NCBI RefSeq assembly: GCF_002234675.1
Contig: NC_019876.2
Coordinates: 11,157,245-11,221,244 of the forward strand
Reading direction: 5' to 3'
Length of the DNA: 64,000 nt
Source of the DNA: Oryzias latipes
Lineage: Eukaryota > Chordata > Actinopteri > Beloniformes > Adrianichthyidae
In this document: positions 2,382 through 59,028 of the stretch, one piece after another
Position numbering within the stretch: the stretch's first letter is position 1
Layout: each line of letters starts with the position of its first letter
The notes under the pieces: model-generated
The model's database searches: none
Seen by the model: the letters and a program-made list of their open reading frames with translations, nothing else
What the model was told of the DNA's origin: nothing
Made by a program: the position numbers and the translations under genes

Positions 2382-11057
<8,676 letters not shown>

Positions 11058-13288: not shown

Positions 13289-16200
13289 TCAACTCTGAAG
13301 CTTTTTGTCCCTCAAGTCCTCTGGCTGAGACTCTTGAACGGGAACATTTGGATGGTCCTCAGGGCTTGTGGGCGGAGTCAAATAGGCAGATCTGGAGTCC
13401 TCTCTCTGAAACATCTGCTTTAAGGGAGTTTCTTCATTCCATCCTTGGGCTTTGGAGAACTTGTAAATACACCCGAACAGATCAGGAAACAGCGTCAGGA
13501 CATCGATGTCAGCTGCATCCTCAGCACTGTTTAAAAAAAAGGGACATTTTTAGACATGTTCAACTGTTGCTATTTACAGAATATGCTATTTTTATTTCAA
13601 AGCAGTTAATCCATTTTTCTTACTAGTGCTCATGGAGGTTGCGTATGAAGCGCAGTAATCCAAGTGCAGTTTCTGGGTAAGCTTTGCCTTTGCCATCTAT
13701 TTTTCCAACCAGATCCTCTGGAAACTGTTTGAAGGAAAGAAAGAATGGATCTAAACTTCTCAAAGAACAAAAAGTAAAGGTGTCATGTTGTGCTCACCTT
13801 CTGTTTCCATTGTGTGAAGGATCTGTTAGCGGCAAATCTTTCCAGGGAGTCGATCAGTTCCTGGTCTGCTTTCCGACAGTTTGAAGCCTCTTTCCTATTA
13901 CCGATGCGCTTCAAGTATTCCAGTTTCCTTGAACAAATAATACTCATTAAAGTTACAGGTCACAGGATTTTTGATGTTGAATAACGTATTAATTTAGAAT
14001 TTGGGTTGAATTCTTACATCCTAGATGACCAGAAAAAAGGATGACTCAGACACTTTTCCATATTTGGTCGTTTTGCTGGATCTTTATCTATCATCTGCTC
14101 AATGAGATCCTTAGCCAGCAGATCTTCAACATCATCCAAACTGTAGTTGCCCTTGTATATGTTGAACTCACATTCAAATGATTTGCCAAATGGATGGTGT
14201 CCACTTGAGAGGATGTAATAAATCAGCATCCCCGCCACCTTAAACAGACTCAAAGCAGTATTTATCCATGCATTCAGGAGTTTCCCCAAACCAGTTTATG
14301 GGTTAGAAATGCTCACCTGCACATCGGTGTTTGACTTGTAAGGGATTTCACATTCTTGTCCTAATGTCTCTGTGGCCATCCAGCACTTGGTTCCTGCGCT
14401 CACCGTCCGGAGAGTCGTTTCATCTTTACGCAGGCGTCTGCTGATGCCAAAGTCAGCCAGCCGCGCATTACCTTTGACATCTGCGGGAAGAAAAACTTAA
14501 AAGATTAACCTCAGAATGTTTAAAAAGTTGATATTTAGGATACACTTGCATTGTCTGAATACATATTCAAAATAACATTGCATTTGAAAAACTAATGAGA
14601 AAAAAAGACATTGAATAAAAGGAAGAAGTTAGAAGTACTACTCAGCTTTAGCTATTACAAATTTTTTTCAATAATTGGGCTCAGGTGCATAAAAGATAAT
14701 AGATGTGAATAGAATTTCTTACCAATCAAAACATTCTGCGGTTTGAGATCTCTGTGAAGAACTTGAGGATTTTGACAGTGAAGAACTTTTAAACTGTGGA
14801 GAAAGTCACCAACAAGTTTCTCCTTCATCTGTAGACTGCTGACGTGGTCTCTGATGTATTCCTCCAGGGTGTACTCGCAAAGTTGGAGGGCGAGATAACC
14901 GAAGTTTTGGTCTTCCGCTGCGTCGATGTACCTCACAATTAATGGGTGATCGAGCTCTGGCAGCCGCAGGATTCCTTCCTCGTTCTTCAGCACTTCATAG
15001 TTACTCTTAGACATCCTCTTGATCGCAACCTCTGTCCCATCGTTTCTCAGCCCCAAGAAAACCTCGGTGCCGTCGCTCCCCTTAGAGATGCGGAATTCAG
15101 CCTTATTCACGTAAGTGATGCTCCCAATCCTGCAGACGTTGCTCTCCTCTGCGAGCCGTTTTAGTTTTTCATTCCACCTCTTACTGATGGGCAGCCATTT
15201 TTTGACCTGGGAAGGTTTGACATGCGTTTCCTGGACAGGTGGTCCAGTCAAACTTGTTTGCACCAGGGATGTTGTTACCTGATTAGCTAAAGACGCGTTG
15301 GTTTCATCGTTGGGGTCCTCTTGCTTCTCTGATTTTTTAGACTTGCTTTTCTTTTTCTTCTTTTTTTTCTTGTGTACAGCCGGACTGGCCAACTCTGCAG
15401 AGTTTGGCTCAAGAAAATTCTTCAGGCGTCTCAGCGCTTCTTTCAGTTTGTCGTTCAGTGTTATATCTGCAGATATCAGTATGTTTTCAGGCACGGAGGA
15501 AATCCCAACCGAGTGAAACATCTGAGCAGGGTTGTCCACTGAAAGCAAGTTTGCAAAAATGCCATAGGCATAAGCCCTGGTTGTGGAGGGGTGATGCTCT
15601 TTTAAAAATGGGGCAACCTTCTCACTCAGACTTTTCAAAAACGAAAAATCCCAAGAGCTGATGCCTTTGGATTTTTGCGTTACCACATACAGTGTTTGTA
15701 GGACTGTTTCAAAGTTTACAGGTATGTCTTGCATCTGCAGGCCAACTATCATGCCATCAGCTCTTCTTTTTGTGCAAAGTTCATCAAGCAGTTCAGGAAT
15801 AATGGCCAAAGCTTCCTCATTTGGTATCTCATCCATTGTGCAGAAAACTGCATGCAAACTAGAAGTTGCCCTACATTTGTGTAAATGTGGGATTTTTCCA
15901 AAACGACTGACAGCACTTGTGATGTAGGCATTCAATTTTCTAGTTTCTTTCAACCATTTGATGCTTCCTTGGCTATATTTTTCCCGATCTCGCCCAGAAA
16001 GTGTGAAAAGAATTTCAATCATGGTCAAATGAGTCGTAGGATCCTCCCAAAACATGAAGGGATCAAAGTCTTTTATGACTGTTTCAGGAGAGTTTTGTTT
16101 GAGTGAAATCTCCAAATCCCAAAAGGGCTTTATTTGGGAGCACAGTTCGTGTCCTTGAGAGGCCAAGTCAGAAATCTTCTGAACAAACGTTTTTAAGTTA

Positions 16201-16652
16201 TTACTGTCGATGAGCAACAAAGTTGCTTGTGCACCAGCTGAGAGGAGACATTTCATAACATCCTCCCTGTTGTTGACAGCAGCAAACTCCAGTGGTGTTG
16301 GGAGGCTCACGTTTGGATTTGCACCAACATCTAATAGTTCTTTCACAAAACAGAGAGGTGCATTAAATTTCGACACAAAGTGCAAAGCAGTAAAGCCTGA
16401 GGTGGAAGCTATATTTGGATTTGCTCCTTGACGTAGCAGATAAGAGAAAATATCCTTGTTATGTTTATAAGCTGCTGCAATCAGAGGAGTTACATAATCT
16501 TTAAGTTGTCTGCATGGATATATCCCATCCATATCGTTGTCCCTCAGTAACTTTTTGAGCTTTTTCAGATTGTTGCTCAGTATGCACTCAATGACAGGAT
16601 GCGTCTCTGTCGGCGGTTGGACTGACAGTTGGACTTGTGTGAAGATATTCAT
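13289..16652 (-). CDS. Ankyrin repeat + protein kinase + KEN endoribonuclease (RNase L/IRE1-like)
   Basis: Six exons in transcript order: 14723-16652, 14317-14480, 14018-14238, 13798-13927, 13624-13724, 13289-13526. They join in frame to 927 codons. ATG is at 16650-16652, 19 nt after a good acceptor (ctctcttcag), so the 5' UTR is probably split. Residues about 20-150 are three to four ankyrin repeats ([35 protein letters not shown]). About 150-400 is a region without a recognised domain. A run of eight lysines follows near 430. The kinase has VAIK (K545), HRDLKPQN (H633, R634, D635) and DFG (653-655), so the usual catalytic set is present. About 773-890 is a KEN domain with RNLHEHY (R843, N844, H848), matching the catalytic Arg-Asn and His of IRE1 and RNase L. 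There is no signal peptide or membrane segment, unlike IRE1, so a cytosolic RNase L-like protein is likely. RNase L has nine ankyrin repeats; here there are fewer. Ligand and targets are unknown. Confidence 0.87.
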
Positions 16653-16799
16653 GTTTCTGGGTTTAGATAACCTGAAGAGAGACAAAGTTTTGGGTCTTAT
16701 AAACTATTTTAAATGTCAAACAAAAAGAAAGACAGCCACCAGATGTACAACTATTTAGCCTAAAGACGGCTTTAATCGTTATATTTGTAGTTTTAAATG

Positions 16800-19743: not shown

Positions 19744-20998
19744 CAGTGGTGGACAAAATTGTTGGTACCCCTCAGTTAAAGAAAGAAAGTCCACAATGCT
19801 CACTGAAACGACTTGAAACGTTCAAAAGTAACAATAAATTAAAATTTCTTGAAAATTAAATAATCAAAATCAGCCATTACTTTTGAGTTGTTGATTAACA
19901 GAATTATTTTAAAAAACAAGCTAATGAAATAGTGCTGGACAAAAATGATGGTACCTCCATAAAAGATTGAGAACTAATTGCCCAGGGGGTCATGATGAAC
20001 CCAGGTATGTCCTTTAATTGACATCACAGCTGTTTTCAAACCCATAATCAGTCAGTCTGACTATTTAAAGGGAGACAAATAGTCATGTTGCTGTTTGGTG
20101 AAAAGGTGTGTACCACACTGAACATGGACAATAGAAAGTGAAGGAGAGAATTGCCCCAGGACATTAGAAACAAAATTATAGACAAACATCGTAAAGGTAA
20201 AGGCTATAAAACCATCTCTAAGCAGCTTGAAGTTCCTCTGACGACAGTGGCACATATTATTCAGAAGTTTAAGACCCACAGGACAGTAGCCAACCTCCCT
20301 GGATGTGGCCGGAAGAGGATAATTGATGACAAATTGAGGAGACGGATAGTTGGAACTGTATCTAAAGAGCCCAGAACAACCTCCAAAGACATTAAAGGTG
20401 ATCTACTAGTTCAAGGTACATCAGTGTCAGATCGCATCATTCGTCCTTGTTTAAGCCAGAGTGGACTTCATGGGAGACGACCAAGGAGGACACCACTGTT
20501 GAAAGGAAATCATAAAAAAAAAGCCAGACTGGAATTTGCAAAAATGCATGTTGACAAGCCACAAAGTGGCCTGCTATGAGCCCAGATCTGAATCCCATTG
20601 AACATCTGTGGAAGGAGCTGAAACATGCCATTTGGAGAAGACACTCGTCAAACCTGAGACAACTGGAGCAGTTTGCTCATGAGGAGTGGGCCAAAATACC
20701 TGTGGACAGGTGCAGAAGGCTCATTGACAAATACAGAAACCGGTTAATTGTAGTGATTGCCTCAAAAGGTTGTGCAACAAAATATTAAGTTATGGGTACC
20801 ATCATTATGTCCAGCCCTATTTCATTAGTTTTTTTTTAATATTTCTGTTAATCAACAACTCAAAAGTAATGGCTGATTTTGATTATTTAAATTTCAATAC
20901 ATTTTAATTTATTGTTACTTTTGAACGTTTCAAGTCATTTCAGTGAGCATTGTGGACTTTCTTTAGCTGAGGGGTAACAACAATTTTGTCCACCACTG
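19744..20998 (+). mobile_element. Tc1-like transposon with long inverted repeats, internally deleted
   Basis: Starts CAGTGGTGGACAAAATTGTTG and ends with the near-perfect inverse, CAACAATTTTGTCCACCACTG, with TA on both sides. The inverted repeats run to about 210 bp per end (inner limit near 19960 and 20790, both with a ggtacc word), the long-TIR layout known in fish Tc1 families. At 1255 bp it is shorter than complete elements because the middle of the transposase gene is lost. Confidence 0.9.
20124..20788 (+). pseudogene. Tc1 transposase remnant, catalytic middle deleted
   Basis: The N-terminal part has the paired-type helix-turn-helix domains (QDIRNKIIDKHRKGKGYKTI, then VPLTTVAHIIQKFKTHRTV) and the second HTH (SKEPRTTSKDIKGDL). 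The C-terminal part has the SPDLNPIEHLWKELKHAI motif near the last acid of the DDE triad. The joint near 20575 skips most of the catalytic domain and shifts frame. The ATG at 20124 is followed five codons later by TGA, probably a decayed CGA. Inactive. Confidence 0.85.
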
Positions 20999-23911: not shown

Positions 23912-26900
23912 TCACAAGCTCAGATCAATGGAGATGTGTTCAAAGATCTTTGTGTTTCCCTTGAAGCTGGAGGAAAAGACGAAGTCCCTGCGGTCGGTGG
24001 AAACCACCGTAAAGGAGCGCGGCGCTTGGATGTACACCTCCTTGAAGCGCTCAAAGAGTTTCTTGTCCTCGTCCCAAAGGTAAATCTGCGAAAAGGTGTA
24101 GTCGCTTCCCAGAGCCAGGTAGTACCGTTCTTTGAAGGAGAACGGCTGCAGCGTCATGGAACCTCGGGAAGGAACTGCCTGGATCTCGGCAAACTGTTTG
24201 GGGCTCCACCGCAGAACTTTGGAGTCGCCGATGTATCGCGTCAAAGCCAGGTACAGCTCCTCTTTGATCCGGAAGTGCTTGACAGCCACTACATCTTCCA
24301 TGTTTGGAATTTCTCCCTGCTGGACGAACTTCTGGCTGCTCCGAATCCACTGGTAAATCACAGGAACCTGAGAGCGGCTCGCCAAAATCAGATGGGCCTT
24401 TCCATCCAAGTTTAGGAACTCTGCATCGGTGTCGCGGAACCACTCGTGAAGAGACTGATACGAGTAAAAGCCGTTGTCGTTCCACTTGTAGAGGGTGGAC
24501 AGGCCGGCTTTGGAGCTGTCTGCAACCACAAAGAACCAATCGGTGCCAATCTGGAACACCTCAATGTCGTTGGGCTTGGAGATCTTAGTCACTTCAATGT
24601 CCTGGAACTTGTTGAAGCGGCTTTGATCATCGTCAAACTTGTAAATGTGAGAACCTCCGAAGAGCTGAGCCACGATGACAAACACCTCATCCTGGATGAC
24701 AACCGACTTGCAGCTCACAATAGACTGACCTGAAAGGCACAGGAACCATTTCAAGAAGAGGGACACTCAACCAAAGCATCTTTGTAAATCAATCACCCAG
24801 CAGGGTGGTACTTAGGACGGAAGTGGGTTGAAATTGGGTAAAAACGTGGCTCCTAAGCATTAACTGTATCTAAGAACTGGGCTGAGTGATTCTGACATCA
24901 TCCATAGAAAATAGTTCCAACAAAATGAAATCAATTCAGTCACCAGTTTTTCACAATATTGACGTCGCCATGTTGTAACTAGTAGTCGTCAATAAGCAGG
25001 GATTGGTTCGAGTCGGTCTGAGTAATTGTTTCTATGGAAACCACTCTCGCAAATCAGGGGTGAGCTTGTTGGAAATCTACACCCCTTCCACTGAAAGCAG
25101 GCTTTAGTGAATCTTTTAAACATTTCGAACATTCAACCATAGTTTTATTGAGGCATTCGATTGGTCATTTTTTAAGATGAGTAACTTGTAATCTAGAAAA
25201 AATATCATGACAAGTAACAGCTGTTTATTTCTCAATCAAAGTCTATGGGATTTTTGGCTTCTTGGAGCCAGCAGGTACTTCCTGTTCCAGTTCTTTTGTC
25301 CAGTTAATGGTCCTAAGTCACTTCCATAACATGGCCACCCTATGTGAGCAAAGAGTAGAAGACCCATTATTGGATATGAAAAGGTACAATGGCTACATGG
25401 ACGGATGCAAGCACCCCAGCTGGGCTAAAACCCTAAATTACAGGAGATCAAATAGAGAACACACATGGGAATTTACAGGTAGGGAACCTGCAATCCCACC
25501 TACATGGGTCCTATTCCTTAAACGCACAGTTTAACTATTTGGGGCCCGTATTATAATGCCGACTGGGCAGTAGGGACAAAATACTAGTCCTTTATGGCAT
25601 CTGTTTAGGCACAAACATAACACAACAGCAGCAACACAGGAAACAGACCTTTTTGGTTTGATGGTAGTAATGATAAACAAGAAAAAGTACCAAACCCTTA
25701 AAGTGGAGTCTTATATCCATCATCCGATAATAATGGTGTTTTTTTATTATTATTGTTATGTTCTTGTAGCATTTTTCTTTTGATAGAGGACAAATAAAAG
25801 AAATCTTAAATTTGAATTTCTGAGTATTTTATTTTTTATTAAAATCCTTAATATGGTTGGATAGCTACAATATTGCTCGCCCTTTTTTGTTGTACCACTA
25901 ATGTTAGATTAGGGGTGTGAGGGGCTGTAAGCTAGCATGTAAACAGATGGATGACGCTGTAAGTACCATGTCCATTCGGCCTGAAACAACCATTTGGGTC
26001 CTTCAACTAATGCAGACGTCACATTATGTGTTTGGCCGTCCGTTGGTCCGATGACGTATCAGATAGTGATTGGTCTGGACAAGTGTTGATACTACCATAG
26101 AAGAAGAAATTATGCGGTCCGTTGTAAACAAACAGAGCTCCGACAAAGAGCGAGATTATCTTCTAAACGTGCTTTTATTTTGTTATGATTATTATTAAGT
26201 GCATTTGGAGCCAAACGCACTGCGAACCCTTCTCCGAACCGCACACCATAACAAAACACCTTCCGCGAACATGAAACTACGCGACTCCAGCTGCTCTAAT
26301 CAGAGACACGGTTCACTTGTGTAGAGCAGCGGGTTCATTCTAACAGCCATGGATATTTTTACAAAGTGGGTGTTGGCAAAATCTCTCTATAAACACTACA
26401 AAGAATAATGTCAGACACAACTTATGAAGGAAAAGAACTTTGGGTTACAAAAGGAAACGTGACATGAAAATATGTAGAGCCCAAGCAGATCTCCACGCTA
26501 CGTAATTTGTCCAAGTTGGGTCACCGTAGTGTGAAGTAATCCTCAATCGAAAGGACCCAGAGCGGTTATTGCAGGCCGAATGGTCATCGTGCCCACAACG
26601 GAAAGTAGGGGCGGGCTTACTCTTTGCCAACGATCCCGCCCATAACTCAGTGGCAAACTTCTAATGAACTACTGCTGCTCTGCTGAAACTATGTCCTAGA
26701 AAATGACCCAGGTTTTTAATTTTTGCCAATAATGACATAATCGTAATTAAAAGACCACTGGGAACACTTTGAAAATGGATCAAAAGATGATCGGAGTGGG
26801 GCTTTAAGTGGAGCTTACCTGTAATATTATCGTATGTCCTGAAGTTCATTTCAATGTGGTCCCACTGGAAAACCATACAACTCTCTGTGGTTGGAGCAGC

Positions 26901-29306
26901 AATGGTCACGTAGACGTCATTCTTGTAACTGAACGTGTCGACAGACAGAGACTCTGCATCCAAGGACTGATGGAGGACGAAATCTGTAAAACAAGTTCTG
27001 CTTTTTTACAAACAGCCAGAGGTGATCACGTCACAAGAGCCTCTCGCTGGGAGGATCTGAGGTGCAGCCAGATAGACTGGAGTCTGACATGAGTCTCTCA
27101 CCCGTGGAAACGCACTCGTTGTGCAGGCTGTTCATGTCGTTAAGGCGCTTGTCCTTCAGGTCCTCCGGTGCGGCACAAAAGACATCGGATACGGTGGCGT
27201 TGGTGCTCTTCAGCCACGTCATGAGCCATTTTACCCGGCAGTCGCACTCAAAGGCATTACCTCGCAAGTCCCTGTGAAACAGAACGACTGTCTGTCACTG
27301 CAGAAAAGCGTGCTGAGAGGCTGCAACTTCAGAGTTCATAAAACAACAGACAGGGAAGGTTCTAACACGGAGAACTCACAGCTCTATTAGTGAGTCCAGG
27401 TCAGCAAAGAGGTCCCGAGGCAGAGCTTTAATGTTGTTGTTCGCCAAAGACCTGGAAGCAGCAAATGAAAAAGAAAATGGAATCAGGAAGTGTTTAAACG
27501 GGTTTCATAAACAACGTCTAGATCACAATTCTAAACATACAAGTGAGTCAAATCCCTGAGTCCTCTGAAGGAAAACCTGGACGTAGTCTCCAGCTTATTG
27601 CTCTCAATGAACCTGAGGGTTTAAAACAAAGGAAATGAGAAAATTACTTTTCTTTATGTGAAGTTTGCCAAAAGCAAAAACTCTACAAACATTTGGGCTT
27701 TTCAAAGTAAGAGAAATTCCTAATTTGTTGAAGTGATTTCATTTGAAATCATTATTATACTTTTATTAATCTTGTGTTTTTCTGTAGTTTGAACTAATAT
27801 GATGATAGATATGGAGGTTAGAAAAACTGGATTAAAACGGGAAACCATTTAATTATACTTTCATCTTATGCTATGATGTAGTTTCATAATTGGAGTCAAA
27901 CCAGGTACTGTAGGGCGAAGGCATTCACACACACATGTACATTCACACCTATGGACAATTTAGATTAAGTAACCTATGAAGCATGTTTTTGGAGAAAACA
28001 CACGCATGCACAGGGAGAACATGCAAACTCCACACAATTTTTGGGGTCACAGTTTTATTTTTATATATGATTTGCTAAGAAGCAATGAAAAAACAACAAC
28101 TTTCAATTGGCTCATTTTAAGCCTGCTGTATTGTAATCTAACAATATTAAAATTCCTGAGTTTAGCACAACTCATGTGTTTGACATTTTCAACGTAAACA
28201 TAACAGTACGCAACACAAATGCAACGATTCACTTTCCCCACAATTCGGTTCAACGGTCAAATTTAAGTCATCATCAACCAAAGTTCTCCAAATATAACAC
28301 TTACAGGTACTCCAGATGTGGTAGACCTGAGAAAGCATCATCCCGTATGGTTGTTAGAGAATTGGAATTCAGAAGTCTGCAACAAGAACAAAAAAGGCAT
28401 AAAAGTTAGTATTAGTTTACTGTTTTACTTATTATAAACTCTACTGTTCTTTGTATCATCTAATAGCATATGTACATTCTGTAAAATCAGGGGCTGAATT
28501 GTTTAATATTTGTTAAGCTAAAACCGGAAACAGTTGAAAATGGAAGACTTATACTTTTGGGGGGGAACCCATTTACACATAATTTCAAAACAACATAGGT
28601 CAATTCCCTGTCTCTAACCCGGCTGGTTTTGCTGACACCAAAGCCGTCACATCAGTGGAGACAAATTATTAATGGACTCCAGTAAATACAGTATGGATCT
28701 GCGCTGAAAGCTCCTGATCACACTTAACTCGTTCATCTTCAGAAGACTAATCATTATTAAAAAAAGAGCCTCCTTTATTAAGTAACTTCTATAGGGATGA
28801 CTGCATCCCTGATAGTTGCTGAGCATCCTTTTAGTGTGCACAGGCTGCATGATTTGTCCTTAAAGTTGGGATTTGCTGCAGAGCATCAGTGCAAAGAGAA
28901 GAAGAAAGCAGCTGTTCTCACAGCAGCTGGAGGGATGGCATGTGAGAAAACACCCCTTCCTTGAGCTCAGTGAAAGTCCCATTGACGATGCTCCTGAGAA
29001 ACCAGAGAAAGAAAAAAAGAGGGGTTGAACTTAAACGATGGAAGAAAAAACAAGAATCCAGAACAGTTTAAGTGCGCAGCGTCTATTGCTGCGCATGTCT
29101 GTCACCAGAGATTTAGAACATACTCACAAGGACAGAATTTCGCTGGGAGAGCTTCTCAGGACATGGGAGGACCCGACGCAGATGATGGACTCCTTGGAGC
29201 AGCTGCATGTTGAGGGGCATCGGAAAGCCCGCTTTGGGTGAGCCGGTTCCGACAGGTTGCACAGCCACAAACACAGCAGGGTCCAAATCTTGAGAGCTGG
29301 CGGCAT
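23912..29306 (-). CDS. lgi2: Leucine-rich glioma-inactivated protein 2 (LGI2)
   Basis: A secreted neuronal protein of the LGI family, whose members bind ADAM22/ADAM23 at synapses. Eight exons in transcript order: 29128-29306, 28922-28993, 28305-28376, 27541-27612, 27380-27451, 27102-27271, 26819-26983, 23912-24729; 539 codons, TGA at 23912-23914. Residues 1-22 are a signal peptide (LKIWTLLCLWLCNL). C30, C34, C36 and C43 form the LRR N-cap. Four 72-nt exons each encode one leucine-rich repeat, the classic LGI layout. Exon 6 encodes the Cys-rich C-cap (GNAFECDCRVKWLMTW). From about residue 220 follow the seven EPTP/EAR blades of the propeller: WDHIEMNFRTYDNITG, AQLFGGSHIYKFDDD, ISKPNDIEVFQIG, GFYSYQSLHEWFRDTDAEF, ALGSDYTFSQIYLWD, ending FEHISIDLSL. 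Length is close to human LGI2. Fish often keep two LGI2 copies (a/b); I cannot say which this is. An RE1 site lies upstream. Confidence 0.97.
24880..25240 (+). repeat. Dispersed repeat with X-box and CCAAT-type motifs, copy 2
   Basis: Inverse copy of 4540-4990. It carries the X-box-like palindromic word gtttctatggaaac at 25028-25041, with 'gattggtt' and 'gattggtc' nearby. It sits in the last lgi2 intron, just upstream of the final exon on the transcript. Confidence 0.6.
25696..26807 (-). repeat. TTAA-family DNA transposon, copy 3, interrupted by another element
   Basis: Outer ends are 'ccttaaagtggagtc' at 25696 and 'ggagtggggctttaag' at 26793-26808. The family start-codon region is recognisable at about 25855-25955 ('attgctcgccc', 'gttgtaccactaatgttag'). 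The copy resumes at about 26630 with 'cgcccataactcag'. The right end stops 10-11 nt from the lgi2 exon 7 donor. Confidence 0.65.
25975..26585. mobile_element. TIR element inserted into TTAA-family copy 3
   Basis: Left end 'ccattcggcctgaaac', with 'tttgggtcctt' just inside; right end has the inverse, 'aaaggaccc' then 'tgcaggccgaatgg'. It splits the surrounding repeat, so it is the younger of the two. No transposase frame; no certain target duplication. Confidence 0.5.
27905..28055. repeat. Fish L2-like repeat fragment in an lgi2 intron
   Basis: Contains 'cacctatggacaatttagat', 'aacctatgaagcatg' and 'agggagaacatgcaaactcc', the same words as the longer copy at 41045-41395. Confidence 0.6.
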
Positions 29307-29656
29307 GATTCTAGGCGGGTTCGCATGTGTGATGATGAGGGTGAGGACGCGAGGAAGGCAGCGCGCGCGTGCGTTTCTACCCTGCGCCGCCGTGAAATGC
29401 TGCACTGACATCAGCAAATCAGCTGCAGCTCCTCTGTGGACGCCTTCGCCGTTTAGCAAGGCAGTTGCAGCAGCAAATGAAAACAGGGGATGCATCATTT
29501 TATTTTTCATCATTTGAGATGAATCCATAATTGGACTATTTTAGTAGCATTGAGGAAAATATAGTTTTTTGGCATTATTTTTGCTGTAATAATCAAATTA
29601 TTAATAAAATTAATGCATAATCTATTTAACAGTATTAAGGAATATAGTTTAAAATA

Positions 29657-29658
29657 GT

Positions 29659-29700
<42 letters not shown>
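29657..29700. repeat. (GT)n followed by a 28-base G run
   Basis: Eight GT units followed by uninterrupted G from 29673 to 29700. Capable of forming G-quadruplexes. It lies about 0.4 kb upstream of the lgi2 start codon. Confidence 0.9.
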
Positions 29701-29704
<4 letters not shown>

Positions 29705-30217
29705 GGAAAACGTATGTTCACTGCATCGTTTTTATGGTAGTAAATTGAGATTAATTCATGATCTATTAAATTCGATTAAGGAAAACAGGCTAAAACTGGT
29801 TTACTTGCGTCATTTTATTATTCAGAACCTGAGATTGTACCAAAATCCAACTAATTGGAATACGAGAAAATGGGTTAAAGTATTTTTGCATCATTTTATT
29901 TTTTAATAATTTGAGATGAATCTATAATCTGACTATTTAAGGATAAGAGGTATAGGTTTCTGTATCTGAGAACTAGAATGAATGAGTTTCTCAATGAAAA
30001 CAGGGGTTTTCACTTCATTTTTCATAGTTTCATTTTTCAGTTTTTAACATGGTTTTCAGTTTCAAACATTCAATTATTTAAAATCTGTGGGCAAACGCAT
30101 CATAAGAAGGTTCTACTCAAATAGTATTTGAATGAAACTGTATAAGTCATATAAGGTTACACTGCACTTTTTTTGTATGGATTTCCCCTCCCTCTTAGGA
30201 TCTAAACGGCGCATATC

Positions 30218-30238
30218 TGCAGCACCACGGACAGCGCC
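30218..30238 (+). promoter_or_regulatory. REST/NRSF binding site (RE1 element) upstream of lgi2
   Basis: The 21-bp word begins TGC and continues AGCACCACGGACAGCGCC. It agrees with the canonical RE1 consensus at every position but the second (G for T), with both half-sites at normal spacing. REST silences neuronal genes in non-neuronal cells, and LGI2 is neuronal. The site is about 0.9 kb upstream of the lgi2 ATG. Orientation relative to the gene does not matter for this factor. Confidence 0.8.
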
Positions 30239-31313
30239 TCCGTGGCCACACACGAGATTTCTTTGACAATATTGCAGATTTACTGTTGGAAACATGCTGA
30301 TCTTACATTAAAAAAATAGAAAAACACATTGATTGCGCTTATATACATATATTTTCCATTTCTGCACATAAAAACACAGATTTCAGATCATTAAAGCTCA
30401 CATTCATTTTGACTGATCATCATTGACATGCATTGCTGCATAGTGACAGCAGCATCAGAGGCAGTAGGGTTTTTTCTCCCTCTCTTCTCTCAGTGCCTCA
30501 GTACAGCTCTGGAACAGTGGAATGTGCTGATACAACGGCATAACTATCAGAGAGCAGCCCCCCTTTCTGAAGGCTGCCGGCTGAGGCGGCTCTGCCGCTA
30601 CACAGCATCTGTGACCTGCATTACTAATAGCAAGACGAAGAGCAACATCTGCACAGACGCGGCTGCTTCTGAGCACAGAGGAGACGTGGAATATCCCAAC
30701 ATGATCAGATTTTTTTTACCTGAGCCTCTTGCATACGGTGTTGATTCAAACTCTGAACATACGCACTTCCTTGTCTGGTCACAGATGATTCTTTGGTCTA
30801 CTTAGCTGTTAATTCATTTAAAATGATTCGTTATATAACCTAAAAACATAACAGACAGTCCATTACAGAGTTCAGATGGAGTTAATGGATCAGCAATTAG
30901 ATTGTTTGGTATATCAGTCAGAGAAGGGGGGCTAATTTATGCCAAAAAGAGAACATAAATTCATTATGCACCATCTGTCTGCCTAATGCTACGACAATAT
31001 TACATGCTAAGACTCCCCGCTCAATTATGAGACGCTTTTAATTCAGAGAAATTGCTACATGAAGCTCAATCTTTTAATCTTCTTTTTTTAATAAAACATG
31101 ATCTAAAAATGAAAAAAAAAAAACAGAAAACAGTTTGACAGTTTATTAAATTATAGCTATAGAGGCAAAAGGCCATTTTGCTCCTTAGAGATTTAAAGGC
31201 AGGTGTTGTGCAATCAAAGGCAGCGAACCTGTCCAGGTTTATTAATAAATATCTGAATTCCTATGCTTGAACAAACAAGCTGCTGATAGTTTCATCTCTG
31301 GATGTCACCACGT

Positions 31314-42014
<10,701 letters not shown>

Positions 42015-45000
42015 TTCTGGAAAAACATAAGAGAGAGAGGGACACAAAAACAGTATAATTTTCTTAAATTTCCAATTCTCTTTGACCAGAAAATCGTTTA
42101 TTGCTTTATTAGAGAATACCTTCATATATTTGCAATGCTGTACTGCCCTTTTTTGAGTATTTTATTCTGAAATACAACTTAACAGTTAGTATTACTTGAT
42201 TTATATCCAATGTGCAATAAATCCACACTAAACAAAAAATTTAAATTGACAACAACTAACATCTGCTTGCAAAAGTCATGACTGCAGATGTGCAGCAAAT
42301 CTTGGGGGGGGGGGAAAATAACACAATTTTCAAATATCAAAAGCAAAAGTTCCGGTACTACATCATTTTTTCCCCAAGTTTGTACTTATTTTGTTTCTCA
42401 TTTCAACCGACTTTAGCATAATGTTGTTTTGCAATCTTTTATTGTTATTCTCAACACATTTGGACTCAAATACACTGGCAAATTTTGTAGATCCTTTCAA
42501 CTTAAAAGCCCTTGGTTTGTCTTTCTGCTCAACAGGACTTTTCTTACCCAAATAAGCCTTTCTGGACTCAATTTAAAATGTTATTTATTTATAAATTTAT
42601 AACATTAGGTTGTTCTGTCTTGCAGGACAAGGACAGCTGAGTAACTGAGAATATGAGCCGAGAATAACAATAAATAATCACAAAACTAGGACATTTTTGT
42701 ATTTCCAAATAAAAGTAAGAGCAGCTAATTAACGGATATTTTGAATGAACCAAACAATAACGTTACTTAGTGCAAATTCCAGAACGAATAACAGTAGAAA
42801 AATACTGCCAGTCAGTGGAGATATGATAAGAAGAGGCTGCTGCAACTGCACACAGTCAACACATGTTGTTGCTATGCTAAGCTAGGCTAAGCTAAGGTTT
42901 TAGCCAGATTCGCTGACGTCTCTTTTTAAGCAAAAAGAAGTTTTTTTAAAAAACGTCTCCATACCCAGAACACCTTTGTCTCAAGTCTGTTTCGCATTTA
43001 CCACTGAGGCAGATGAAGCAAAAGTGACAACTACTGTAGGGAGAACGAGGAAACGAGGAAAAGTGTCAGTCAGAAACAGAAGGACAACAGTTGCTGCTGT
43101 CACGTGACATTTTTAGATCACGTGATCAGCGCAGAGTTTTTAGTTCATTTTATAACATTTTGGAAAGGTATACCGAGGTATTCTTTCCAATACCAATAAT
43201 ATTTGTCCAAACTTAAATGTAAAAAAAGATTTTCAAAAAATTATAGATGGAGGATGAAGAAAACACTTAAAATTTATATTTGTGTGATAGAAAACTTTTA
43301 ATGAAAAAGCGTTGGTTTGTCAGATATATAAATAAAGATTCTGCTTTATTTAGACAGTGCAGTATCGATTATTCAAGTCCCTTCATTGATTTTACTTCAA
43401 AACAAAAGATATAATAAGTAAAAGTTATAGATTAAACGTGTGTAAAAATCATAAAAATGTAGATTGTTGGGTAATTAATATCATTCCACCCAAAACCAGA
43501 TCTGGTTTCTTATCCATCCAGACAAAAACGTGTTTTTGAGCTTAAAAAGCTTACAAGATTTACTCAAACATTTTGTTTTTTACAAACTAACCGGCTACCA
43601 AATAATATAAAAAAAAAATCCAAAAACCAAATCTTAGTTTCTTTAAAAGAATTCAATAATTTACTTCAAAAATATCACTTAGCAAAAGTAGTCTATTTAA
43701 GTGTACAAGTCTACTTGGTTTATAGTACAAAACGTGAGGCAGTGTACTTGAAGTTTACTTTTTAGATACCATCATAAACTTTAAATGTTCCTGCCATAGT
43801 ATTAATAAGTTAAGTCACTTAAAATGTAAATAGAGGCCATAGATGTTGTCAGTGAAAACACTTTTCTTAAAGTTCCACTCTACTTCCTACAGTACATGTA
43901 CATGATGCATTCATGGCCTCTGCACCCTTTACCAATAAAAGACCGATTTGGTCCAGTTTCTTATTGACCAAAACCCAACAAGAGCCACAAAGTCCCACCT
44001 CAACAATTAGAATTTGTGGCAATTAAGTCATTCGTTTACAACATGCAGCTTGTAAATATTACAAGAATTGTGTTATATTATTTTATTTTTAATCATTTTA
44101 CCTTCCTTTACTTTTTGTCTGCAGCACATGCAAGTTCCTTTCAAAATAAAATACTTCATTAAAATTGTTAACACAGAAAACTCCTCATAATTCAATTCTA
44201 GAACATTTTTAAATGTTAGATTTGAGAAAATACATAGATTAATGGGTACAAAAACACAAATGAAATGTGTTTAGGCAATAGACTACTATTTGCTAAGGGA
44301 TTATTACTATAAAGATTTTTATTTGTAGTAGTAAAGTCTGACATTTTCTTTTGATTTATTCTATCAGTCAGACAGTAAAGTTAAGAAAAATTATGTTTGA
44401 TGTCCAAAAACAACAACTTCCTGCACAGTTTCCTCCTCTAAAAAACATAAAGCAGCACAAAATGAAAGCAAAGGGTAACAAGTTCACAAAAATATAGCCA
44501 GAAGTGTTGCTACTAAATTGCTGGTTACCTTTGAATAATTACAGAATCTAGGCGGGAAATGAAAGCAGAATCTCTCCGAGGCTTGGCTGCAACAGGGAAG
44601 TGAAGGATGGCAAGTCACTGGCATAGCAGAGCCTTCACTTCAACAGCTATGCCAACATCTTGCCCTCATTCAGGACCCAATATGAAAATCAGTGGTGATG
44701 CTTTCACGGTCCTCCCCCGTGTTCGGGTAAAAAGTTTCTTGTTTTCAGAGGCGAGCAAAGGAAAAAAAATCTGTTGAAAGTAAGAAAGTTTTAAACAACA
44801 ATACGAATAACAAATAAAGAATAGAAAGAAAAACACACATCCACGTTGATCTAATTTAACCCCGATTTTAAAATACGTTTTTTCAGCTAACAAAAAGACA
44901 CGCATCGTGAAAATATTTTCGTAAAAAGCAATAAAAATACATATATATCAATATAGCCTTTCTCCATCAGTGCAAAACATTATCTAAAAAAAACAGACGT

Positions 45001-56350: not shown

Positions 56351-59028
56351 TAGATAAATGACTTTATTAATCCCACAATGGGGAAATTTCATTTATCTTT
56401 CATGATTATTATTATTATTATTATATGAATATTTAATTCATGATAACTAGTTTGTCTTAGCAATTGTTTGTAACACGTTAGCCACTTTACCGTTTTCACA
56501 ATACCTGTAACTCCAAGCCTTGTTTGGAACACGTAAAATAAAATACTTCTTCTTTCACTTTCGGCTTGTCCCATCAGGGGTCGCCACAGCGTATCAGCCA
56601 CTTTACAGCGGAAGATTTGCATGGTAATCTTGGCAATGTTTTATGCCAGATGCCCTTCCTGACGCAACCCTCTCAAATCAACCGGGCTTGGGACCGGCAC
56701 AGGAGTAGAGAAGGGAACAGGGAGCAGCCCGGATTCGAACCCAGGTTTCATGGACGGAAGGCGCCGCAAACCAGCACGAGCTACGTAAAATAAAAGACTG
56801 ATAACGCTAAAACAAATGTTATGTATGACTACGGACGCTGGGACACGCTAGTAAAGTTACCATATTAACAATACCTGTAACTCCCAGCCTTGTTTGGAAC
56901 ACGTAAAACAACAGACTGATACCACAACACAATTGTTACTATGACTATGCTAACTTACGACGTTGTTGATAACACGTAAAAAAAAAAACAGTTGGACGCC
57001 GCTACACGTTAGCCACTTTACCATATTAGGAATACCTGTGACTTCCACCCTTGTTTGCAACACGTAAAACAAAACGGACCGATACTGGTAAAACAAATGT
57101 TACTATGACTAGCTATGCTAACTTCTTATCATTGTTAGTAACACCTAAAAAAACCAGTCTGACGCCGCTGCACTTTAGCTTCGTTAGCATATTCACAATA
57201 ACACCCAACTTAACTTTTTGACAGAGTGCCGTGTACCTCTCAGAATCGCGTCAACATCAGTTAACAGAACCAGAATTGTCTAAATAAACTGGGCTCCGGA
57301 TTACAAGGTAAACTGATGCTTTTTGAAAAACATTAAGGCTTTTACTGACACACTTTAGTGGGGAAAATACAGCAGTTCCTGCAGTAGTTCATTAGAAATT
57401 CACCCCTGAGTTGTGGGCAGGACCATTGGCACTGAGCAACCCCCTTTGCCTCCCCACTGCTGAGAGCTCAGAGCAGGGATCATGTAGCCCATCCAGCATA
57501 TTTTCTACATCATAAATACAATATTTTTCAAACTTCAATTTTTGTTAGAAACACCAACAACACATTTTTACTTTAGAGTGGCTCTGTAAGAACTCAACAC
57601 AGGATTAAAACTGAACTGCATCTGAGACAGGTTGTAGTTGTCCTCCAGTTTTCCTGCTTGAAGTGATTGGCTAAAGTAAAAAACAGAGCAAATAAGGATT
57701 AAAAAGACAGGGGCCATCATTTCCTATTTTATTATGGAGTAAAAACAACTATAAAAACCACCTAAAACTAGATGAAGTGTGAAACACCAAAAAGTGCATT
57801 AATCTCACTTTATTTCCTTTACATTTTGACTCAAAACTGTCAAAAACAACATCTTATAGTCCTGTAATTACTAAACTGTGCTCATTTGGCGTCTTTTGAA
57901 TGCACTTGAAACATCTGCCTTTCTTTTAATATTATTAAATAATTATGCACTCATAAAAACATATACAGAAAGCCTGATTAAATATAAATCCTACAGATTT
58001 AGAGTTGGACTAAAAATGATCTTAACATCCACGATAACCATAATAGTGGAGGAGAAGAGGCCTCATATTCTCTTTCTTTTTTTTCCTTTTTATGTAAGAT
58101 GTTTCCCATTTGGTAGATTTGTATTGCAGTTTTAGGGCAGGAAACCAAACTTAAGAAGAAGACAGTCAGAATTAAATTAAATTAAAAACAGAATTAATAA
58201 GCTAACGTTTTTTTTTTCTAACCCTTTCTAGTGAGATACAGAATAAATCAAACAAGTTGCACTGATAACAGCAATAAAGGCTTTAACTTTGGAGGCAAAA
58301 ACAGAGTTAGGATGTAAAGGGTGCTGATGTCGGATGACATACCCAACAGTGATGTCAAAGATGTTGGAGCCCACAGAGCTGGAAACAGCCATGTCACCCA
58401 AACCCTTGCGTGCCACAATGACGCTGGTGATTAAGTCTGGGATGGAGGTACCAGCTGCTAAAATAGTCAGACCCATGATCTCTTCCGTGATCCCAATAGT
58501 CTCTCCGACCTGCAATATGAAATAAAGAAAAAAAACATGTTTGTTGTGTTTCTCATATGATGACTGAGGTATGAATGCAGAGTTTTGTCTTGAGTGAGAC
58601 GGCTGCTATTCTGTCTGAGTGAGAAATTGTCAGATTCTTTTGCATATTCCAGGTATAAAAGACACGATCAGATTTTTCTGTGTTATATAAACAAGTGAGA
58701 TGTTTTGTTTGTGTACCTGGTGAGCCCACCAGACCATAAGGTAGGAGAATACTGCAATCCAGGTGATGGAACCCAAGAACGTGACTGGGAAGAACTTCTT
58801 GGATGACTGGAAGTTGAAAAGGATCATCAGGGGATTGTTGCACAATCATATCACGCTGATGAGATTTGGTTTTCAGAAACCAGCCCAACCCACCGTCTTT
58901 CTGACATCAGGCAATGTTATCCACAAAGGGAGGACTATAGGCATGATGAGGAGGTAAGTAAAGCGCTTGCGGTTGGATTCCGGCCATGACAGGCTCAGAG
59001 GCTGGTCCTCTTCCTCCTCATCTTCAGC
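55748..59028 (-). CDS. slc24a2: K+-dependent Na+/Ca2+ exchanger, NCKX1/2 group (last four exons)
   Basis: A plasma-membrane exchanger that moves Na+ in against Ca2+ and K+. Exons in transcript order: 58894-59028, 58717-58806, 58343-58509, 55748-55997; in frame to TGA at 55748-55750 (214 codons incl. stop). This is the C-terminal half: end of the acidic cytosolic loop ([18 protein letters not shown]), then hydrophobic segments. The alpha-2 repeat is present: [20 protein letters not shown] with the ion-binding Asp, then [18 protein letters not shown]. The end is [31 protein letters not shown], which excludes NCKX3-5. Paralogue choice is provisional: [22 protein letters not shown] and TCPVSI favour NCKX2, NGLKPV favours NCKX1. 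N-terminal exons lie right of the window or were not recognised. Confidence 0.88.
56150..56400. repeat. MITE scrap, (GACA)n tract and LINE-type 3' tail
   Basis: 'ttattttccgcgctaga' resembles the hairpin MITE at 59090-59296. Next come about ten GACA units (56307-56350), then 'atgactttattaatcccaca' and 'atggggaaatttc', a common 3' end of fish non-LTR elements. All in the last exchanger intron. Confidence 0.5.
56544..56782 (-). mobile_element. tRNA-derived SINE with 13-bp target duplication and LINE-matching tail
   Basis: ACGTAAAATAAAA occurs at 56531-56543 and 56783-56795. On the minus strand the head carries a perfect B-box-like GGGTTCGAATCC of a tRNA promoter. The body has 'gggttgcgtcaggaagggca'. 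The 3' tail 'gctgtggcgacccctgat' then 'gacaagccgaaag' matches the tail of the LINE at 8181-9636, which implies mobilisation by that LINE family. Confidence 0.85.
57333..57600 (+). repeat. TTAA-family DNA transposon, internally deleted copy 10
   Basis: Begins with 'taaggcttttactgacac', has 'ctgcagtagttcattagaaa', 'tgagttgtgggcagg' and 'ccatccagcatattttctac', and ends 'ttagagtggctctgtaag'. The ORF start region is missing. Confidence 0.55.

Follow-up and report, generated by a model that had tools for sequence, protein, structure and literature searches.

The question raised by this locus is whether a 21-bp word upstream of an LGI-family gene of Oryzias latipes is a genuine RE1/NRSE, the element at which REST silences vertebrate neuronal genes, and, if so, which gene it would control. 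The window, meaning the whole 64,000-nucleotide stretch of DNA that was analysed, corresponds to C18:11157245-11221244 of the genome.

The word and the gene beside it

The features identified in the window are collected in Table 1. The word TGCAGCACCACGGACAGCGCC agrees with the canonical RE1/NRSE TTCAGCACCACGGACAGCGCC, the form used in zebrafish transgenes (PMC3529185), in 20 of 21 letters, and both half-sites are present at the canonical 2-bp spacing. Each of the outer letters (1 and 18-21) agrees with TTCAGCACCACGGACAGCGCC, and the sole mismatch is a G in place of T at position 2. The site differs from the transgenic element in this letter, in being a single copy rather than a tandem, and in lying at a native locus. 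The original prediction of a near-perfect RE1 with both half-sites was borne out on the forward strand at exactly the position listed, although the count of 20 in 21 is slightly flattering, since the one mismatch sits on a core position (PMC1794552).

Table 1. Coordinates of features in the window (position 1 is the first nucleotide of the 64,000).
Feature	Position	Strand	Remarks
RE1/NRSE word	30218-30238	+	20/21 letters as in the canonical word
Left half-site TGCAGCACC	30218-30226	+	part of RE1/NRSE
Spacer AC	30227-30228	+	part of RE1/NRSE
Right half-site GGACAGCGCC	30229-30238	+	part of RE1/NRSE
Mismatch, T to G	30219	+	position 2 of the word
lgi2-like gene	23912-29306	-	8 coding exons, 539 aa; ATG at 29306; open frame; all 7 introns GT...AG
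lgi2-like exons	29306-29128, 28993-28922, 28376-28305, 27612-27541, 27451-27380, 27271-27102, 26983-26819, 24729-23912	-	
CpG-rich stretch	29200-29399		over lgi2 exon 1 and 5' flank; GC 0.60, CpG o/e 0.96
Decayed AT-rich repeats	29476-30140		between lgi2 start and RE1; unit about 100 bp by eye; two short self-matches
Run of 28 G	29673-29700		within the decayed AT-rich repeats
sepsecs	31317-39004	-	three matched frames: 31317-31589, 38484-38696, 38786-39004
Similar stretch, copy 1	about 26740-26805	-	by eye; in last lgi2 intron
Similar stretch, copy 2	about 31685-31750	+	by eye; in intron-side flank of last sepsecs exon
LINE reverse transcriptase-like frame	8211-9593	-	461 codons; by eye
Ankyrin repeats, then protein kinase domain	14658-16703	-	long open frame; Pfam
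Tc1/Sleeping-Beauty-like transposase pieces	20142-20785	+	20142-20576 by Pfam, second piece by eye
mir-31 precursor	44596-44676	-	Rfam 58.3 bits (gathering 51)
Sodium/calcium exchanger-like frame	58231-58605	-	exon-like; by eye

The reading frame of the neighbouring gene is intact. Its protein is of the LGI family and carries EPTP repeats, and its best PDB match was LGI1 (residues 23-538, E 1.3e-204); no relative was found when viral contigs were scanned for LGI. Among the paralogues, lgi2 is the best name, because the gene lying upstream on the same strand is sepsecs and a table of human genes on 4p places LGI2 adjacent to SEPSECS (PMC10048360). The RE1 lies 911 bp upstream of the lgi2 start codon, in agreement with the roughly 0.9 kb originally given, and its predicted place upstream of lgi2 likewise held for this LGI2-like gene, the name being supported by the adjoining sepsecs. 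On the other side of the RE1, the last coding frame of sepsecs ends about 1.08 kb away. The CpG-rich stretch is likely to be the lgi2 promoter region.

Two other structures at the word were considered and rejected. A hairpin was discounted because its 7-bp arms, CCACGGA and TCCGTGG (30225-30231 and 30239-30245), are short and many such pairs occur in 701 bases. A 33-codon forward-strand open frame running over the RE1 looked protein-like by eye, but as a coding exon it was given up, with no Pfam family at E up to 1 and only three weak PDB matches (best E 0.7).

Several features elsewhere in the window were recorded in passing. The mir-31 precursor, about 14 kb from the RE1, was the sole Rfam match, and the frame with ankyrin repeats and a kinase domain has a layout that we take to resemble RNase L. 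The similar stretch found in introns of both lgi2 and sepsecs, CACT..ATCATCTT or GTCATCTT..GTGTTCCC.GTGGTCTTTTAAT, is likely a dispersed repeat.

Expectation by chance in the window and in the genome

No second RE1 was found on either strand of the window at up to 4 mismatches, which leaves a single site. With the spacer ignored, the RE1 departs from the canonical word at 1 of 19 letters and the second-best 21-mer on either strand at 5; a search for split half-sites (spacers of 0-12, at most 1 mismatch in the left half and 4 in all) returned the RE1 and one place at 3151 on the reverse strand with 3 mismatches. The number of such matches expected by chance per window, estimated with Markov orders 0-4, was 4e-6 to 1.5e-5 for the 19 specified letters, and 3e-7 to 8e-7 when the full 21 were counted. 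Among 2000 permuted motifs, the best matches were one at 2 mismatches and ten at 3, with none at 1, while 1 of 100 dinucleotide shuffles contained a match at 3 mismatches or fewer. A match to the looser 16-bp core is less remarkable than one to the full word, with 0.007-0.02 expected per window at 1 mismatch. The RE1 match is far beyond chance, and the claim that it would be improbable in a 64-kb window stands on the 5 mismatches of the next-best place and on the 0 of 2000 permuted motifs.

The word was then counted in the host genome (734,051,031 bases, 25 contigs) using the pattern NTYAGCACCNNGGACAGCGCC at no more than 1 mismatch, with position 1 free and position 3 either C or T. The lgi2-side RE1 fits this pattern with one mismatch. 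A total of 271 matches (131 + 140) were obtained, against 0 for the reversed pattern and 0.4-0.8 expected by chance with the composition of the window as a stand-in for that of the genome, so that nearly every such match comes from a maintained or copied class. The same contrast points to very few chance matches in this fish for the complete 21-bp word at up to one mismatch. The density is 0.024 per 64 kb; if the sites were evenly spread, about one window in forty would contain one.

Flanks were compared for eight perfect sites (L001-L008; 8 of the 271, 3,020 bases each), which showed no mutual similarity at E 1e-5. What they have in common with the lgi2-side RE1, a member of the same word class, is the word itself (19-22 bases) and a few weak short matches. 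These unrelated flanks, in 8 of the 271, indicate that the class is more than a single repeat. Individual sites were listed for 100 of the 271, namely 29 perfect ones and 71 of the 242 with one mismatch, the latter from C1-C8. Three identical TCAGCACCATGGTCAGCGCC words on C6 (12862767, 12874011, and 12885247), spaced at about 11.2 kb, may be repeats, and a GGTCAG variant, seen in 17 of the 71 listed one-mismatch sites, may reflect the spread of an RE1-bearing repeat.

The changed core position

The published RE1 core comprises positions 2-9 and 12-17 (PMC1794552). In the 71 listed one-mismatch sites, the mismatch fell most often at positions 19 (21 sites), 14 (17, all T), 20 (15), and 21 (5), and otherwise at positions 3, 6, and 18 (3 each) and 2, 9, 12, and 13 (1 each). 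Position 2 is thus constrained in this genome as it is in print, and the lgi2-side site belongs to a rare sub-class; the one listed site altered there, on C7, has C rather than G. Chance would give 0.01-0.03 exact matches genome-wide to VYAGCACCNNGGACAGCGCC, with a letter other than T at position 2, and at least two exist (the lgi2-side site and that on C7), from which the sub-class seems to be derived from RE1s, whether working or decaying.

How much this letter counts depends on the definition adopted. The strict 17-bp consensus NTYAGMRCCNNRGMSAG demands T at position 2 (PMC4430910), where the lgi2-side site has G; compared by eye, its remaining 16 positions agree. This consensus is one in-silico filter among RE1 definitions, and in profile-based definitions not every base is obligatory (PMC1794552). 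A zebrafish scan with the core 16-mer TCAGCACCnnGGACAG accepted one mismatch and gave 1102 sites (PMC3531662); the lgi2-side RE1 has one mismatch to that core. The weight-matrix scan proposed with the original prediction was performed with a REST profile built from 16 table rows of published sites, 14 of them unique once two repeats were dropped (PMC1794552), which is a small profile. The lgi2-side RE1 scored 29.5, inside the 18.4-33.7 spanned by the profile's own sites (4 of the 14 being higher), whereas the next place in the window scored 12.0; the consensus scores 34.0. Compared with a consensus RE1, the lgi2-side site may be weakened by its change from T to G.

Prediction from a motif alone can mislead, given that ChIP-seq confirmed 57 of 111 predicted targets common to human, mouse, and frog (PMC4430910) and that an earlier mammalian scan estimated 41% chance sites (PMC1794552). 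The lgi2-side RE1 is a longer match than the published filters require, but its core mismatch weighs in the opposite direction. RE1 places also turn over, the site having been kept in human for 12 of 85 homologous frog regions (PMC4430910).

Proposed silencing of lgi2 and alternative readings

In print, REST at an RE1 brings in CoREST and Sin3A with histone deacetylases (PMC4430910), and its binding is accompanied by lower promoter acetylation (PMC2687797). Placed near the basal promoters of zebrafish transgenes, NRSE words, even as a single element, suppress non-neuronal expression (PMC3531662), and this suppression depends on Rest (PMC3529185). Context matters, in that a UAS reporter was not restricted by NRSEs placed at the UAS alone (PMC3529185). 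In killifish, REST matters for the diapause programme, which has no bearing on lgi2 (PMC11970524). Support for neuronal expression comes from mammals: PV basket cells are rich in LGI2, which supports their synapses (PMC6607995), and LGI2 has been used to mark Golgi cells of the mouse cerebellum (PMC9854201). The lgi2 locus resembles REST-silenced vertebrate neuronal genes (PMC1794552, PMC4430910) in belonging to a neuronal synaptic family and in having an RE1 less than 1 kb from the start codon. It differs from them in that LGI2 and NRSF were not found together in the main texts of the papers searched. LGI2 and RE1 did co-occur in one main text, as unrelated words, and no LGI2 was among the papers listed by broader literature searches. 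Neither strings with GCAGCACCnnGGACAG nor at least two RE1 consensus strings together were found in paper main texts, and the excerpts of PMC8415321 and PMC4430910 contained no LGI.

The reading that we favour, and hold to be likely, is that the word is a genuine RE1 silencer, bound by Rest, through which lgi2 is kept low outside neurons. We infer Rest binding, repression, and the choice of lgi2 as target, rather than sepsecs or a distant gene, from the word and its setting. The original proposal of fish lgi2 as a direct REST target is plausible and has partial support. Rest would be recruited to the 21-bp element, which lies some 0.9 kb upstream of the gene, and would there engage CoREST/Sin3-HDAC complexes that reduce histone acetylation. 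Transcription of lgi2 would in this way stay low in progenitors and in cells that are not neurons, and in neurons a fall of Rest would release it.

The strongest competitor, though rather unlikely, is an RE1 that is weak or decaying after past function, with the change at position 2 lowering the affinity of Rest and the site little used. It overlaps with the favoured reading, and the two are not mutually exclusive. The core status of position 2 in print (PMC1794552), the T that 13 of the 14 published sites at miRNA genes have there, and its alteration in a single one of the 71 listed sites all speak for it, but a decaying site should also have lost some of its loosely constrained letters, and all 20 others are intact; moreover, C occupies this position in the published mir-9-1 site (PMC1794552 table). 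We regard it as less probable still that Rest does use the site but mainly for another target, for instance a gene farther away or a transcript missing from the annotation. In frog, mouse, and human, a distance of more than 20 kb separates about 65% of NRSEs from a gene (PMC4430910), sepsecs ends close by, and a polypyrimidine-AG stretch was seen by eye before the word on the forward strand; against this, the lgi2 promoter region is nearest, sepsecs turns its 3' end rather than its promoter to the site, and the short open frame that spans the RE1 is without a family match.

Very little weight is given to the two remaining explanations. A resemblance by chance, without function, draws on the many motifs any of which could have been spotted at the outset, and on the looser 16-bp core expectation, yet chance would supply the full word at one mismatch about 1e-5 times per window, and the genome-wide count far exceeds its empty control. 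Carriage of the RE1 by a mobile element has precedent in the repeat-embedded RE1s described in human (PMC2687797) but is just as improbable here, where the flanks have no second copy in the window and none at the eight other RE1 loci; a self-comparison of 29900-30700 gave two short matches, both to the left of the RE1.

Genuine silencing by Rest at this word would probably add a new case to a familiar type of switch. A more tentative and less probable proposal is that lgi2 is a direct Rest target whose variant RE1, with reduced affinity owing to G at position 2, tunes the timing of lgi2 release during neuronal maturation; if true, this would connect Rest with a family of synaptic genes related to epilepsy. 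If the site is occupied, a gene of that epilepsy-linked family would join the REST network of fish, and the locus would offer a clean single-site setting for the effect of a core-position change on repression by REST.
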